A stretch of DNA of 64,000 bases. Source: Methanococcoides sp. GTDB taxonomy: Archaea; Halobacteriota; Methanosarcinia; Methanosarcinales; Methanosarcinaceae. The notes beneath the pieces are model-generated. The model was not told the DNA's origin. It ran no database searches and was given only the letters and a program-made list of their open reading frames with translations. The DNA lies in assembly GCA_021108185.1 (NCBI GenBank), contig JAIORJ010000182.1, forward strand, positions 1-64,000. The letters run 5' to 3'. Shown here one piece after another: positions 29,836-44,915 of the stretch. The position numbers were made by a program, and so were the translations under genes. Each line of letters begins with the position of its first letter. Position 1 is the stretch's first letter.

Positions 29836-29933
29836 AATTTGTAATTATTGCATTAACATATCAAAAAACAAGCTATCTGAAAACAAAAGATAATAAAAAA
29901 TGCATGGATGTTCAATAACTTAATTTAAAATGA

Positions 29934-30018
29934 TGCGGGAGGTGTGATTCGAACACACGAACTCCTACGAGACTAGGCCCTCAACCTAGCGCCTTTGACC
30001 TGGCTGGGCAACCCCCGC
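29934..30018 (-). tRNA. tRNA-Leu (GAG), copy without encoded CCA
   Basis: Leucine tRNA with a long variable arm: acceptor GCGGGGG, anticodon loop TTGAGGG between CTAGG and CCTAG, T-loop GTTCGAATC. The 84-base body is identical to the copy at 30101-30184. Discriminator A is followed by TCA, so no CCA is encoded. Confidence 0.93.
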
Positions 30019-30096
30019 ATATTGTTGGGTTATTGTTTATCGAACTTCCATCCTGAAATAGCTCAGGATCGCTTAATTCCACATTTATAGTATGTT

Positions 30097-30184
30097 TGGT
30101 GCGGGAGGTGTGATTCGAACACACGAACTCCTACGAGACTAGGCCCTCAACCTAGCGCCTTTGACCTGGCTGGGCAACCCCCGC
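30097..30184 (-). tRNA. tRNA-Leu (GAG), copy with encoded CCA
   Basis: Same 84-base leucine tRNA as the neighbour, here followed by ACCA, so the CCA end is encoded. It lies 52 bases past the end of rpoD, a position where many euryarchaea carry this tRNA between rpoD and rpl18e. Confidence 0.94.
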
Positions 30185-38385: not shown

Positions 38386-39579
38386 TTACCGCCCTTTCCT
38401 TACAATAAAAGCCACTGCAACAAAAAGTGCTATTGAGATGAAAGCACTGAAGCCAGGAACCGGTTTTTCAGCTTCATCGGAACCAGCACCTGCAATTATG
38501 ACCTTGTTGAACAGTTCTTCTGAGGCCACGAGGTCATTTGTAGCGGTCTCAAGGTTGTGTATCCCAAGGCTTCCATCATTCTCTATTTTTGTCAGGTAAA
38601 ATTGACCGTTGTTGTAGTTGGCCCTTTGCTCCTCGTAGGCATCAGTACCATTGATGCTCTCAAGTGCATTGCCTGCTTTTTCTTTCAATGAGTTCAGAGC
38701 GGAGATATGAGATACAATAGGTGCCTGCTTTTCTTCTATCAATGAGGGGAGAGACGACTGATGACAGAGACTACAGTTGTTCCCGGAATCAGGATTCGAC
38801 AATCGTACCGCATCAAAGTCAAATGTGTGCCCGGTTTCAACAACTTCATCAGTGGATATTTCTACCATGTGGCAATCCACACAACCGATCGAAGTAGGAT
38901 GTGGACCATCCACATATCCGGAAGTGCTCACCAATTCCCACTGCGCATGTCTTACTATCGGAGTATTACCGTCCATGACCGCACCTTCGGTATTATGGCA
39001 GTTCCCACACAGAAGGATCGAATCATCTATACGAGGGTTAGTATCGTGAGGATCATGACATGCGGCACATGAAATTGCCCATTCGTTCACCACTTCAAGC
39101 TCATGAACGCCTTCCTCATCCAGAGCATAAGGTTCAGCATCTGCAATGTTCAATATGCCACCATCAGTGCTCTTACATGCAGTACATGATGCTCCACTAT
39201 TCAGAACATAAGGCTCAGCAACATCCGTTGGTTCTGAATGGCTTGCAATGGCCTCCATATCGAAGTCAGCTTCACCGAATTCGTTCCATTCATCATAGAC
39301 ACCTGAATGACAGTCGCCACACACTTCAGAAGAAAGGTTTACGTCAGGCGAGGACGTGAACGGCGCAGAGATATGAGCATCAAAACCACCTGGTGATGCT
39401 GTATGACATATATCACAGGATGCAGACCCGTGAGGTGATGAGCTCCAGACCGCATAAGTTTCCCCATGGCAGTCGCCACATTCTTCAAAGTCTACCGCCC
39501 CCACAACAGTTGTTAAAAATAGCAATACTGTTGTAACTACTACTATTGATCTTAAGATTTTCCCCATCATATGAATCAT
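38386..39579 (-). CDS. Membrane-anchored multiheme cytochrome c with one CxxCK motif
   Basis: About 397 residues outside the membrane. A signal peptide (GKILRSIVVVTTVLLFLTTV) is followed by eight haem-attachment motifs. Numbered from the ATG at 39579, these are CGDCH 34, CDICH 55, CGDCH 87, CTACK 132, CAACH 171, CGNCH 191, CVDCH 233 and CSLCH 269. The fourth has lysine instead of histidine. A helical stretch and a C-terminal PGF-CTERM-like tail follow (PVPGFSAFISIALFVAVAF then basic residues). It resembles methanogen MmcA-type electron-transfer cytochromes, but the CxxCK in fourth place recalls octaheme nitrite reductases. An upstream ATG at 39594 lies too close to the TATA box to be used. 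Confidence 0.85.
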   Translation of the reverse strand: MIHMMGKILRSIVVVTTVLLFLTTVVGAVDFEECGDCHGETYAVWSSSPHGSASCDICHTASPGGFDAHISAPFTSSPDVNLSSEVCGDCHSGVYDEWNEFGEADFDMEAIASHSEPTDVAEPYVLNSGASCTACKSTDGGILNIADAEPYALDEEGVHELEVVNEWAISCAACHDPHDTNPRIDDSILLCGNCHNTEGAVMDGNTPIVRHAQWELVSTSGYVDGPHPTSIGCVDCHMVEISTDEVVETGHTFDFDAVRLSNPDSGNNCSLCHQSSLPSLIEEKQAPIVSHISALNSLKEKAGNALESINGTDAYEEQRANYNNGQFYLTKIENDGSLGIHNLETATNDLVASEELFNKVIIAGAGSDEAEKPVPGFSAFISIALFVAVAFIVRKGR

Positions 39580-39600
39580 TTTAATATTGGACATTCAGGA

Positions 39601-39610
39601 CATATAAAGA
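39601..39610 (-). promoter_or_regulatory. TATA box of the multiheme cytochrome gene
   Basis: TCTTTATATG on the minus strand, centred about 26 bases before the ATG at 39579, implying a leaderless or nearly leaderless mRNA. Confidence 0.45.
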
Positions 39611-39645
39611 TTTCTGACACAGATTTTAGGTTAGAAAGAATGTGA

Positions 39646-39903
39646 TTAATTAGCTTAAAAACTTATAATCAGTTTGAGAAAGTTTATACCAGTTTAAATG
39701 TAATCACAGCCCTTGCTAATTCTCACCCTATAAAACTTGTCAATGTGGATGATCTCTGCAAAGAGTATGAGAATCAAGGTATTGACAGTGAAATTACTAT
39801 GTCGATTGTATCAAAACTTAAAACTCAGGGAGATGTGATTACCATAAATTCTAAATCAATAAAAATGAATACAGATTATTATTTTGGCAATGTTAATAAT
39901 TGA
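39646..39903 (+). pseudogene. Possible winged-helix gene fragment
   Basis: The plus frame is open for 85 codons after a TGA at 39643. It reads TYNQFEKVYTSLNVITALAN, then KLVNVDDLCKEYENQGIDSE and a beta-hairpin-like end before a TGA at 39901. The pattern (helix, helix-turn-helix, short wing) suggests the C-terminal winged-helix part of a DNA-binding or MCM-like protein; this is only a guess. No start codon exists before an internal ATG, so it looks like a 5'-truncated remnant. It is AT-rich like the module that follows. The remaining ~90 bases up to 39991 are promoter sequence. Confidence 0.35.
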
Positions 39904-39960
39904 TAACAGATTTGATGTATAAACATCCCCCTTTTTAAAAAATAAATAGTTTTTAGATAA

Positions 39961-39970
39961 ATTTATATGA
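39961..39970 (+). promoter_or_regulatory. TATA box of the HD-STAND module
   Basis: ATTTATATGA centred about 26 bases before the ATG at 39992, with no ribosome site between them. A leaderless transcript is likely. Confidence 0.5.
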
Positions 39971-39991
39971 AATGAAAATTGACTTAAATTG

Positions 39992-40444
39992 ATGCTTCTT
40001 GAAAAATTGAGTCCAGAGTATAGAAATAAAATTGATACAATTAAAAATAGTATGCAGAGTATGTGGTCGAAAGGTGAATTTAACCATCGAAACTATACAC
40101 TGCACGGAATAGAACATTCTGAAAATATAATAACAGCCCTAGAAAAATTGACAGATGGTTTTAATTCTAACTCTGAATTAAGCGAACAAGAAGCATTTTG
40201 TTTGTTGGCTGCTGCATATTTACATGATGTAGGAATGCTTTGCAATTATGATGACGATGAAAAAAGAGCTGAAGAAATATCTCAAACGAAAAATGTGAAT
40301 TATACTGTTGAAGATTTGATTAGAGATGAACATCATTTAAGAAGTGGCCAATATATACTAGACACTCGAAAGCAATTTGGATTGGATCATATTGAATCCG
40401 ATTCAATAAGACTTGTTTCGGAAGGGCATCGTAAAAAAATTTGA
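39992..40444 (+). CDS. HD-type domain, N-terminal part (frame breaks at an A7 run)
   Basis: 150 residues. HGIEHSENI near residue 35 and LAAAYLHDVGML near residue 70 give the H and HD ligands of an HD/PDEase-like metal site. The ORF stops (TGA at 40442) right after SEGHRKK. The next ORF, which starts within these bases in the -1 frame, continues the same fold with LLAGLLRLADEIEI, where HD domains of this kind have their last aspartate. The break is in a run of seven A (40433-40439); one extra A joins both ORFs into a protein of about 1,185 residues. ATG at 39992 is preferred to TTG at 39989. GC content is clearly below that of neighbours. Confidence 0.8.
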   Translation: MLLEKLSPEYRNKIDTIKNSMQSMWSKGEFNHRNYTLHGIEHSENIITALEKLTDGFNSNSELSEQEAFCLLAAAYLHDVGMLCNYDDDEKRAEEISQTKNVNYTVEDLIRDEHHLRSGQYILDTRKQFGLDHIESDSIRLVSEGHRKKI

Positions 40445-43400
40445 ATTCTGAAGAATATAAGTCATCTGGCCGTGTTTCAGAATTAATACGCATTAGACTT
40501 CTTGCAGGGCTTCTTAGATTAGCAGATGAAATTGAAATTTCTTACAAGCGAGCCCCTGAAAACTTATTTGAGCAGCTCCAAACTAGAATGAATAATTATT
40601 CTCAGCTCCAGTGGTTTAAACATCATTATACTGCAACTGTTGTTATTGAAAAAAATAACAGAGAGAGGATGAATAAAACTGAAATTCAGATTCATTTTCA
40701 TTACCCAAATCAAGATGTAGCTGATAAATTAACTCCAATAATCCTGAAACCCATCAAAGAAGAAATAGACTATCTCAAAGACATATTTACACCCTATGGA
40801 TTAAGTTTAGAGCTCAAACAGTCTGAAATTAGCATAAAACCTGGTTTGAAAATAATTCCTGAAAATGTTTATATGAGTCACATTAACAAGGACATAAATA
40901 TATCAATGGAAATTCCAAAAGCCAAAGGTTTTTTGGGAAGAGATAGTGAATTAGAAGAGTTGACCAATTCCCTAGATAATAATATAGTTATCATTGAAGG
41001 CATTGCAGGTATTGGTAAGACTTACATTGCATCCAAGTTTGCAGAAACACTGAAAGACAAGTTTGTTGTATATTGGCATGGAAATATTAGTGAAACGACT
41101 TCAATAAGTTCTGTTATTAAAAAATTATCTGTTTTTTTAAGTCAAAATGGAAAAGATGAATTAGCAAATTCAATCGAAAATTTTGGTTATGATATTGATG
41201 TTTTAATAAATATTTTAGTATCTGAGTTGAATGAAAATAAGTTTGTTCTCTTTTTTGATGATTATCATAAAGCAGAAAAAGAGCTAAAACCATTGATGGA
41301 GCAAATGCTTCAATTAACCTCCTCAAAAATTGTCCTTATTACAAGAGAAAAACCATCATTTTATAATGTTGTTGATGAAGTAGAAAATCGGGTTTCAATC
41401 TTCACAATTGATTCATGGAGTTCTGAAAGTACAAACAAACTTTTAGAAAATCGGCATATAAAAACAGATATTGTCACTACTAAAAAGATCCATGAGATGT
41501 TGCATGGTCACCCACAATATTTGAATCTCTTTTGTATACTTGCACTTAAATCAAATCCAAAAGAACTATTTGAGCAAATTCCAAAAGCATTGGAAAGTGC
41601 TTATTCATATCTGGAAAAGGAAGTATATAATTCACTAAGCTTAAATGAAAAATCTTTAATCAAAATTATTGCAATTTATAGGCTACCACAAGAGATTGAT
41701 GCATATTATCTTGACGAACAAATGAAAGATGTGGATGATGTACTCTCAAAATTGATAGATAAATTTTTAGTTAACGAAATTGGCAATAAAAAATATACAA
41801 TTCATGAGATTATGAGAGATTACTGTATCAATGATGTAAAAAAGAAAAAAACGATTCGATCCATAAACGGAGCTGCTGGGGATTATTATTTATCATTAGA
41901 TAAAGAACCAGAAAATATATTAGAAGCTGTTTTTCATTACAATGAAGCAACACTTAAAGAGCGAGCAACTGAAGTCTTGGTTGCAAATACAAGTCAACTG
42001 ATATCAAAAGGATTTTGGGAAAAAATAGAAGCACAACTTCTAAAATCACTTCTAATGTTTCGTAGAACAAACCAACCATATAAGCTCCATTTGTTAGCAA
42101 AGATCAACTTAAATATTGGATCATTGTATTACGAAAAAAGAGATTGGGATGAGGCTTATAAGTTTGCAAATGATGCGAAAAATCTTCTGAAAAAAGCAAA
42201 AGTTTCAAATAAGAATTTTTATACAACATATACACTCATGAGTTCAATTTACTTCAAAAGAGATCAATTGGATAAAGCAAAAGAATACAATGATAAATGT
42301 GAAACGATTGCAAATGCAGAGGATAACTTGAGTCAAAAAATGATTGCGAAAGGAAATCTCGTAATGATTGAAAATCCTTCTAATGAAGAGAAGCTTCGCA
42401 TATACAATGAAATTAATGAGTACTTTGAAGAACAATCAGATAATAATAATACGGTTAGTTCTTACAGAAACCTTTCAAATACATATAGAGTTATGAAACA
42501 ATATGAAAAGGCTGCTTGTTGCCTTAAGAAAGCATTAAAAATCCTAAAAGAAAATAAAAATAGTTATAATATTATTGAATCCAAAGTGAGTTTAGCAAGA
42601 GTATATATTAATAATCCAAATAATCCAATACATTTAGTTGATATTATAGAGTGTTTGAATGAATGCTTAAATGTGTACAAAAAAATTGGCCACATTAGAG
42701 GAAAGGCAGAAGTTTTGGAACTTATTGGAGATGCTTATTTCTCAGATGGAAAAGAGAGTTTAGCACTTGAAAATATGAACAAAGCCGAACAAATATATCA
42801 GTCCCTGAATTATATTGAAGGTGAGGTGAATTTAAACAGTAAGATGGCACATAAATATATTAAACTGAAAAAATATTCAGATGCTGAACACTATTTGGAA
42901 AAGATGAATTTGCTAGACCCACTCAATATTAACAATTTATTAAACGCTTCGGAAATTTATATCTTACTGGGGAAGTACAAAGACGCTTACACCTTTTCTA
43001 CTAAAGCAACAAACGAAATAGAAAACAAAGATGTAGACATGAGATATTGTTTAGCGCTTCTAATTACCGCAATTTCATTATTAAAATTGGGGAAAAATAA
43101 AGAAGTTGTAAATTGTTTACGATTAATAGGAGCATTTAATTTTTCAAAAGCAGATGGAATTAAATGGAGTTTTTCAGAAATTGAAACAATGTTGAAAGGT
43201 GTTGAAAACTACACTGTATTCTTTGAAGATGTTATATCTTTACTTAAAAATGAAGAAAAATATCCAAAAATAAGAATAAATGATGTTGAAATATTAAGAG
43301 AAACAAAAGGGACTGAAGCTACGGTATATCACCCTTTTACAGGGAATTATATAATAGAAAAAAAGGACAAGGATTTTATAAATTTGTTCCAGAAATTAAG

Positions 43401-43548
43401 TGATGGTCAAATAATAAATGATAGTAATTCTAAAATACTAGACATTGATCGGTCTAAAGCATTATTAATAATAGGATTTTTAGCAAATAAAAATGTTTTA
43501 GATTATGAAATGATAGATCAGAATAATATAATGTTAAAACTAAATTAA
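40441..43548 (+). CDS. STAND-type NTPase with TPR-like repeats (and C-terminal part of the HD-type domain)
   Basis: 1,035 codons. Residues 1-120 complete the HD-type domain of the ORF before it (LLRLADEIEISYKRAP). A NACHT/NB-ARC-like NTPase follows: GFLGRDSELEELT, Walker A EGIAGIGKT (about 187-194), Walker B FVLFFDDYHK (about 268), sensor-like KIVLITREK, then HGHPQYLNLF and a winged-helix region. From about 470 to 900 come TPR-like helix pairs (YEKRDWDEAYKFANDAKNL and others), and a separate domain of ~95 residues ends the protein. The apparent TTG start overlaps the previous stop; re-initiation, frameshifting or sequence error are all possible. This layout fits conflict-system sensors, but no known system is matched exactly. 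Confidence 0.82.
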   Translation: MNSEEYKSSGRVSELIRIRLLAGLLRLADEIEISYKRAPENLFEQLQTRMNNYSQLQWFKHHYTATVVIEKNNRERMNKTEIQIHFHYPNQDVADKLTPIILKPIKEEIDYLKDIFTPYGLSLELKQSEISIKPGLKIIPENVYMSHINKDINISMEIPKAKGFLGRDSELEELTNSLDNNIVIIEGIAGIGKTYIASKFAETLKDKFVVYWHGNISETTSISSVIKKLSVFLSQNGKDELANSIENFGYDIDVLINILVSELNENKFVLFFDDYHKAEKELKPLMEQMLQLTSSKIVLITREKPSFYNVVDEVENRVSIFTIDSWSSESTNKLLENRHIKTDIVTTKKIHEMLHGHPQYLNLFCILALKSNPKELFEQIPKALESAYSYLEKEVYNSLSLNEKSLIKIIAIYRLPQEIDAYYLDEQMKDVDDVLSKLIDKFLVNEIGNKKYTIHEIMRDYCINDVKKKKTIRSINGAAGDYYLSLDKEPENILEAVFHYNEATLKERATEVLVANTSQLISKGFWEKIEAQLLKSLLMFRRTNQPYKLHLLAKINLNIGSLYYEKRDWDEAYKFANDAKNLLKKAKVSNKNFYTTYTLMSSIYFKRDQLDKAKEYNDKCETIANAEDNLSQKMIAKGNLVMIENPSNEEKLRIYNEINEYFEEQSDNNNTVSSYRNLSNTYRVMKQYEKAACCLKKALKILKENKNSYNIIESKVSLARVYINNPNNPIHLVDIIECLNECLNVYKKIGHIRGKAEVLELIGDAYFSDGKESLALENMNKAEQIYQSLNYIEGEVNLNSKMAHKYIKLKKYSDAEHYLEKMNLLDPLNINNLLNASEIYILLGKYKDAYTFSTKATNEIENKDVDMRYCLALLITAISLLKLGKNKEVVNCLRLIGAFNFSKADGIKWSFSEIETMLKGVENYTVFFEDVISLLKNEEKYPKIRINDVEILRETKGTEATVYHPFTGNYIIEKKDKDFINLFQKLSDGQIINDSNSKILDIDRSKALLIIGFLANKNVLDYEMIDQNNIMLKLN

Positions 43549-43807
43549 TTTTGCCAGCTTATAAGTGATATTTATGAAATGCACACGAATATTTATGAAG
43601 AATTAATTTCCCCTCCATATTTTTTAACTGCAGACAGCATCCATTACCCTATTCTGCCATACTTAAGAATATACCCCCCATCGGCATCCTAATCTACATG
43701 GAAGAGGGACAAAAATACCACCTTTATTAATTCTACTTAATGTATAAAATGTAGTACAACCAAACAAAATACAATCACATCAAAAAAAGCACTCAAAAAG
43801 AATTATA

Positions 43808-43890
43808 CGCCGAGGGGGAGATTCGAACTCCCGAGGGGTCAAGCCCCACAAGCTTTCCAGGCTTGCGCCCTACCACTAGACTACCTCGGC
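43808..43890 (-). tRNA. tRNA-Ser (GGA)
   Basis: Cloverleaf on the minus strand: acceptor GCCGAGG/CCTCGGC, anticodon stem CAAGC/GCTTG with loop CTGGAAA (anticodon GGA), a long variable arm (TGGGGCTTGACCCC) and T-loop GTTCGAATC. Discriminator G; CCA not encoded. It lies 29 bases past truB. The 259 bases on its other side, up to the STAND gene, hold no gene. Confidence 0.94.
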
Positions 43891-43919
43891 AAAAATGCCA
43901 GATTCGTGCTGACCGGCGT

Positions 43920-44915
43920 TTATTTCGCCTTCCAGCACCTTGGATAAATAGCGGCATCCATTATTACCCTTTCGGTCACACAAGCTATGCCGTGACTTTC
44001 ATTTTCAAGTTCATTTGCATCCATGGATGACCTGCAAAGTGCCACAGCTTCCCCTTTTAGAGTGAAAACGGCAATTATGTCATCTTTTTTGATGCATTTA
44101 CTAAATGAAACGATTCCCGGAACTGCAAGAGAAGCACCTCTGCAAACAGCATCTACAGCAGTATCACGAATGATAATTTTTGGCAGATGGGACAGACCTT
44201 CTTCCATTGGAAGTACCAATCTGCGCAGTTCAGACTCATCGCCATCTTCCTGCCAGTACACGCATGCATCCTTGAGGTCATATAGAGATACAAGAGTATC
44301 TTCCCTGAACGGACCCGTCCCGGTTCTGCGAAGCTGCTTCATGTGCCCGCCACATCCAAGGACCAGACCGATGTCATGACAGAGCTTGCGAAGATATGTA
44401 CCTGCTTCACAGCCCACCCTCATGAGCACTTCCCTGCCTTCGATCTCAAGGACATCGAGGTAATAGATATTCCTGATCCTCAATTGTCTTTTTACAGCAG
44501 AGATAATTGGAGGTGTCTGGTAAATAGGCCCTGTGAACTCTTTGCATGCTTTTCTTATCTTCCTTTCAGGAATGTCATCATGCAAATGCATAACACATAT
44601 GTACTCTTTTCCGGAAAGACGCAGAGCTGAGATAGCTTTTGTTGCCTTGCCAAGCATCACGGGGAGCAGACCTGTTACGTGTGGGTCAAGTGACCCGGAA
44701 TGTCCTGCTTTTTTTACACCGAGCATATCCCGTACCCATGCTGTGACCTCGTGACTTGTCGGACCTGTTGCCTTATCGATGTTCACAACACCCATGTTGA
44801 TATACTCGAGGATCGGCCGGTCCCGGGGAAGACATCCGTATGCTGCATTGGTAGTTGTGTGGAACTTTTCCACCATTATATCTACATCTTTGGAAAAACG
44901 TTTAGATGAAACCAT
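43920..44915 (-). CDS. truB: tRNA/rRNA pseudouridine synthase TruB/Cbf5
   Basis: Archaeal Cbf5, catalytic subunit of H/ACA RNPs that also modifies U55 of tRNA. 331 residues. The catalytic aspartate is in KAGHSGSLDPHVTGLLPV, KEYICVMHLHDD and GTYLRKLCHDIG are family blocks, and a PUA domain forms the C-terminus (PGIVSFSKCIKKDDIIAVFT). Last protein gene of the leftward ribosomal cluster. Confidence 0.95.
   Translation of the reverse strand: MVSSKRFSKDVDIMVEKFHTTTNAAYGCLPRDRPILEYINMGVVNIDKATGPTSHEVTAWVRDMLGVKKAGHSGSLDPHVTGLLPVMLGKATKAISALRLSGKEYICVMHLHDDIPERKIRKACKEFTGPIYQTPPIISAVKRQLRIRNIYYLDVLEIEGREVLMRVGCEAGTYLRKLCHDIGLVLGCGGHMKQLRRTGTGPFREDTLVSLYDLKDACVYWQEDGDESELRRLVLPMEEGLSHLPKIIIRDTAVDAVCRGASLAVPGIVSFSKCIKKDDIIAVFTLKGEAVALCRSSMDANELENESHGIACVTERVIMDAAIYPRCWKAK

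Follow-up and report, generated by a model that had tools for sequence, protein, structure and literature searches.

We consider it probable, taking the reading as a whole, that a gene family of the Methanosarcinales encodes NLR-like antiviral receptors with an HD-CE effector domain, and that the copy of this gene in the 64,000-nt stretch of Methanococcoides sp. DNA analysed here (the window), which carries a frameshift, is most likely inactive. Both the window gene and full-length orthologues are made up of an HD-CE domain, an NB-ARC/STAND NTPase with a winged helix, a set of ~13 TPR-like repeats and, at the C-terminus, a small domain.

Reading frames and domain architecture

The ORF listing of the window resolves the block at 39992-43548 into two overlapping ORFs in different frames. 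ORF1 (39992..40444, + strand; 150 aa) encodes the N-terminal part of HD-CE and ends in TGA. ORF2 (40441..43548, + strand; 1035 aa) has a TTG as its listed start, in a frame open from 40435 that is −1 relative to ORF1, and encodes the remainder of HD-CE, the NB-ARC/STAND NTPase, the winged helix, a TPR array and the C-terminal domain. The frame breaks at a run of seven A residues (A7; 40433..40439, + strand), in the codon frame CGT AAA AAA ATT TGA, where a −1 step leads into ORF2, and a single chain is obtained only if one base is added at this run. The Pfam HD-CE profile spans the break, with its positions 3-149 in ORF1 and 165-234 in ORF2, and the joined window reading, HRKKNLNSEEY, aligns with HRKVNLGSDDY and HRKTDLNSESY of intact orthologues. 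At least four intact orthologues are without the break and read through this region in one frame (HRKTDLNS, HRKVNLGS, HRQTKLES and HRQIKLEL), and no A-run is present at this position in the orthologues examined.

Both ORFs exceed the curated Pfam cut-off of 27 bits for HD-CE (PF24391), ORF1 with E=1e-19 (71.7 bits) and ORF2 with E=7e-11 (42.7 bits), and intact orthologues score 127.5-141 bits. Aligned with 19 HD-CE proteins, the window encodes the complete metal-ligand set H, H, HD, H, H, D, split over two frames: in the joined reading, H38, H42, H78, D79, H114 and H146 are in ORF1 and the last ligand, D179 (D178 in the orthologue from G059; codon at 40525..40527, + strand), is in ORF2. The residues H39, H43, H77, D78, H113, H145 and D178, in G059 numbering, are invariant in 19/19 diverse HD-CE proteins. 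As the frameshift parts D179 from H38, H42, H78/D79, H114 and H146, the effector of the window copy should be dead unless the frame is recoded and, judged from its sequence, this copy, with a one-base frameshift between the last His and the final Asp of the HD site, is most likely unable to produce a working effector.

The structure model of HD-CE has a pLDDT of 90.6 and a pTM of 0.91. In fold comparisons its best solved matches, all with modest E-values, come from PPX/GppA (the HD-like domain), class I PDEs and the HD-GYP protein PA4781, which is bimetallic, and the HD-CE sequence also matches PDEs, weakly. We predict that HD-CE is a two-metal phosphodiesterase; a literature search found no report of an activity for HD-CE or PF24391. 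A dNTPase was rejected as the first choice for this domain, there being no dNTPase among the 50 best fold matches and no partner gene.

ORF2 matches NB-ARC with E=1.8e-9 (37.7 bits; Pfam cut-off 23.5). Sequence and alignment place Walker A, GIAGIGKT, at 40999..41022 and Walker B, FFDD, at 41251..41262, followed by a GxP-type STAND motif, HGHPQYL, at 41503..41523 that is conserved in all orthologues and a winged-helix motif, IHEIMRDY, at 41800..41823, in the position of the MHD/HD motif and with HD or HE in orthologues (all + strand). A sensor motif is also present, and all of these motifs are conserved in orthologues. The Pfam TPR matches of ORF2 (TPR_12, E=1.2e-18) and the AlphaFold model of the G059 orthologue, in which residues 614-1046 are mostly above pLDDT 80, delimit a TPR superhelix of ~13 helix pairs, presumably the sensor, at approximately 41842..43150 (+ strand). 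The C-terminal domain (43151..43548, + strand) consists of a helix and beta strands with a winged-helix-like end unit and lacks the last ~10-15 residues of the orthologues. In the full-length AlphaFold model (mean pLDDT 73.5, pTM 0.48) the TPR region is well predicted and the NTPase poorly, and for the latter reason we claim no arrangement of the domains. The nearest relative of the STAND-TPR core is the archaeal PH0952 (PDB 6MFV), the best natural PDB sequence match (E=6.5e-31) and the best also by fold.

The original prediction of an HD-type metal site, a NACHT/NB-ARC-like NTPase with Walker A and B and a winged helix, a long TPR-like array and a separate C-terminal domain is borne out for each domain. 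That these are all readable as one chain is not: HD-CE, within which ORF1 stops at its TGA and ORF2 takes over in the −1 frame, occupies one open frame in the orthologues but not in the window copy. Nor is there evidence for a TATA box of its own, as the TATA-like TTTATATG at 39962-39969 would fit an archaeal promoter, but TTTATATR is in no excess over chance, with 7 occurrences in the window versus 6.3 expected.

Insertion site, orthologues and possible decay

In blastn comparisons with nine congeneric sites, homology to close relatives ends near 39641 and restarts near 43641, leaving an inserted or variable segment of 4.0 kb (39642..43640) that is replaced in congeners by other cargo or by nothing. 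The left border is a multihaem-cytochrome-like gene (38386..39594, − strand), and on the right are a tRNA-Ser(GGA) gene identified by ARAGORN (43807..43891, − strand), with its 3′ end towards the insert, and a TruB-like gene (43920..44915, − strand), all three conserved in the genus. The hotspot, which spans 39595-43806 in the window and the loci L115-L123 in congeners, is empty, with ~90 bp, in G019, G021, G024 and G025. Where the window has the HD-STAND gene, G023 has a TIR protein of 396 aa (PF10137, CAP12/Pycsar type), G017 a Fic/Doc protein, G018 and G020 a permease-like ORF, judged by eye and without a Pfam match, and G022 a 485-aa protein (L116:585-2039, − strand) that has a hydrophobic stretch at the C-terminal end, matches nothing in Pfam or PADLOC and is itself the product of a candidate new defence gene. 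It is this combination of an empty site and swapped cargo that most strongly marks the gene as accessory and of defence type. No att-type direct repeats or inverted ends were found at the borders of the insert. At its left edge, an MCM C-terminal winged-helix-like stretch of 85 aa (39646..39903, + strand), which matches an MCM-like protein of ~707 aa at 28% identity (E ~6e-6), is a probable remnant of an earlier element, and G022 has a shorter MCM-like remnant at the corresponding site (L132). Elsewhere in the window, at 29932-30184, there is a tandem pair of tRNA-Leu(GAG) genes.

The GC content of the window gene is 29.5% compared with 43.7% elsewhere in the window, in agreement with the far lower GC originally noted, and the same holds across the window and its orthologues, with 29.5-36% in the gene and 42-51% in the surroundings. 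A search of 112 family genomes found full-length orthologues only in G079 (43%) and G059 (39%), with fragments in G111 and, in the others, similarity confined to STAND or TPR regions. Further scans added G457, the Methanosarcinales MAG CSMAG_2476, a partial copy in CSMAG_1127 and an ANME-2c fragment, so that there are at least four intact orthologues (G059, G079, G457 and CSMAG_2476), of 1191-1212 aa and 40-45% identical, all from Methanosarcinales. Their loci are unrelated, without shared neighbours or a conserved operon; the G059 orthologue adjoins a transposase gene and that of G457 a Fic gene, and most are solitary and outside dense defence islands. No relative was found in plasmid, phage and viral contig collections. 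The orthologue of G475 (ANME-2c) is in two contig pieces (L074:2158-5563 and L029), and a DDE transposase gene ends just ahead of the second, at ~residue 255, suggesting an insertion. In CSMAG_1127 (L028:11673), an in-frame TGA follows residue 700 and homology continues beyond it, and a different STAND gene of a congener (G018:C3:196814-198189; L007) is likewise split into two ORFs.

The HD-CE domain itself behaves as a shuffled module, its partners being NB-ARC-TPR, nSTAND3-TPR, NACHT or HSP90, and some of the resulting genes adjoin TIR, SIR2 or HsdM genes. It is joined to an HSP90-like ATPase at L082, L086, L088, L089 and L090, to NB-ARC-TPR at L081, L083 and L085, to nSTAND3-TPR at L087 and to TPRs only at L077 and L078. 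One protein of 1326 aa, encoded directly beside a TIR gene (L084:5-4618, − strand), combines ParA-like, HD-CE, NB-ARC, DUF7779 and TPR domains, and another (L079:3434-6787) has HD-CE, NA-iREase1, NACHT and pentapeptide repeats, a further swap of effector and sensor. An HD-CE protein of ~975 aa (L091), of HSP90 type by its similarity to L088, is encoded near HsdM and SIR2-like genes in a defence-island setting.

Given a site that gains and loses genes, the window allele could quite conceivably be mobile-element cargo that has decayed and now serves no function in this strain, an explanation that we regard as a serious contender, that is limited to this allele and that is compatible with a defence role of the family. 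Its frameshift, the residues missing from its C-terminus, the MCM-like remnant just upstream and the transposase gene in the G475 orthologue are all consistent with decay. The intact orthologues are left unexplained, however, and ORF2 is still long and open and retains all of the NTPase motifs, so any decay must be recent. The allele in the window was probably broken only recently.

Function of the family

A defence or conflict role of the family is well supported by genomic context: the hotspot with its variable cargo, the patchy, AT-rich orthologues and the modular fusions of HD-CE to STAND and HSP90 proteins. The conflict or signalling system originally proposed thus stands for the family but not for the window copy, which is frameshifted in its effector. 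Neither a housekeeping position in a conserved locus nor the absence of an HD or NTPase fold, either of which would contradict such a system, was found as far as this could be pursued.

Most likely, the gene was acquired horizontally and by itself encodes, in Methanosarcinales, an NLR-like defence receptor with an HD-CE phosphohydrolase as effector, an NB-ARC/MalT-type STAND switch, a TPR sensor and the small C-terminal domain. The STAND core would be kept closed on ADP by the TPR superhelix, alone or together with the C-terminal domain, until a viral or plasmid product binds and the core opens. ATP-bound protomers would then multimerise and so cluster the two-metal HD-CE domains, which would cleave a phosphodiester substrate, possibly a nucleotide, cyclic nucleotide or nucleic acid, to the harm of the infected cell. 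This order, from TPR sensor through NTPase to HD effector, is a sensible model by analogy with STAND proteins such as the PH0952 group, in which ADP-closed monomers become ATP-bound open multimers upon inducer binding (PMC6468293).

PH0952 from Pyrococcus horikoshii shares the NB-ARC/MalT-type NOD and TPR sensor but has a putative ArsR-like DNA-binding domain as its N-terminal effector and is a predicted transcription regulator (PMC6468293), and a core of this type alone does not, therefore, imply defence. The family could instead be a MalT/PH0952-type signal-transduction or transcription regulator with no immune role, in which the TPRs sense a metabolite and HD-CE adjusts a nucleotide second messenger. 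The nearest solved core, the winged-helix-like C-terminal end and an HD fold that most resembles those of PPX/GppA and cyclic-nucleotide PDEs fit this reading, but we think it unlikely: the N-terminus is HD-CE rather than a DNA-binding domain, no orthologue has conserved neighbours or an operon, the gene is rare and patchy, and the site exchanges it for TIR and Fic cargo.

Other HD-CE fusions, both HD-CE-HSP90 and HD-CE-STAND, share the effector domain, which has the full His/Asp set in orthologues. The best-scoring archaeal members, however, carry an HSP90-like ATPase, and the HD-CE NB-ARC-TPR fusions in G006, G081, G098 and G008 differ in having DUF7779 and another TPR type. Avs and bNACHT are NLR-like antiphage proteins that have an N-terminal effector, a central STAND NTPase and a C-terminal repeat sensor in one protein. 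The window family shares this domain plan but differs in its effector, HD-CE, and neither the window nor the orthologues matched an Avs family model in PADLOC. No named PADLOC defence model was matched either, the scan giving only generic TPR similarity, a similarity of the HD part to RT_UG24 and weak hits. HD antiphage enzymes are exemplified by Clover, with the dGTPase CloA, and SpdGTPase (PMC12265719), which have in common with the family an HD-fold effector in antiviral defence. CloA is, however, a dNTPase partnered by the product of an NTase gene, whereas the window family is solo, has extra conserved histidines and has no NTase gene seen beside it, so it does not belong to the Clover type.

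As HD-CE is already in Pfam and its fusions to STAND and HSP90 recur, the family is a variant of known building blocks, HD-CE-STAND-TPR being apparently an uncharacterised combination of them. The original description, as a candidate undescribed system with no name known for this exact order, is weakened to that extent: the effector is a named Pfam domain, PH0952 has the same STAND-TPR core, and the phylum contains further proteins of HD-CE-NB-ARC-TPR make-up.

The frameshift: mutation, error or recoding

The window gene would be intact if the frameshift were a sequencing or assembly error, and A7 is a classic site for one; the remainder of ORF2 is free of stops over 1035 codons, and a single error at A7 is possible in a draft assembly of 230 contigs. 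ORFs of the congener G017 (one contig) were compared with ~140 kb of contig C1, 131 ORFs in total. In the window, all 54 G017 ORFs with matches are unsplit. Of the 77 compared over the adjacent 80 kb, three are split: deletions of 19-20 bp account for two of these and a 1-bp difference close to the start for the third. With no break at a homopolymer in these 131 ORFs and 23 runs of 7 or more (12 + 11) undisturbed inside intact ORFs, we hold with good confidence, on these sequence comparisons, that the frameshift is a genuine mutation, and an error is correspondingly improbable. The window copy also differs at 25% of the sites that are invariant in the other four, compared with 7-17% for those, although simple divergence fits this as well. 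A generally error-rich assembly was rejected, the few breaks being the 19-20 bp deletions or the start-region difference.

Less likely still, a genuine frameshift might be recoded, so that −1 slippage of the ribosome or polymerase on A7 would yield little full-length protein and in this way hold a toxic receptor in check. ORF2 is in the −1 frame and still open, the TGA is three bases past the run, and archaeal −1 recoding on A-AAA-AAT is documented for fucA1 (PMC8211752). Here, however, the 0 frame is T-AAA-AAA-ATT and the canonical heptamer is out of phase, so perfect pairing could occur only by P-site slippage, and no orthologue has an A-run or frameshift at the break. We give very little credence to the combined proposal that a single archaeal gene encodes an NLR-like immune receptor, that this receptor kills by means of a two-metal HD-CE phosphodiesterase, and that in this strain it is expressed only through −1 slippage on A7, which would serve as a safety catch in translation.

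NLR-like immunity has been much studied in bacteria but scarcely in archaea, and this family supplies candidates that are compact, intact and encoded by one gene, in relatives of Methanosarcina hosts amenable to genetics. They would allow tests of whether HD-CE is a phosphodiesterase that can be activated and of whether the cost of autoimmunity drives the loss of such receptors or their silencing by frameshift, and the cytochrome/tRNA-Ser site could be used to find more archaeal defence genes.
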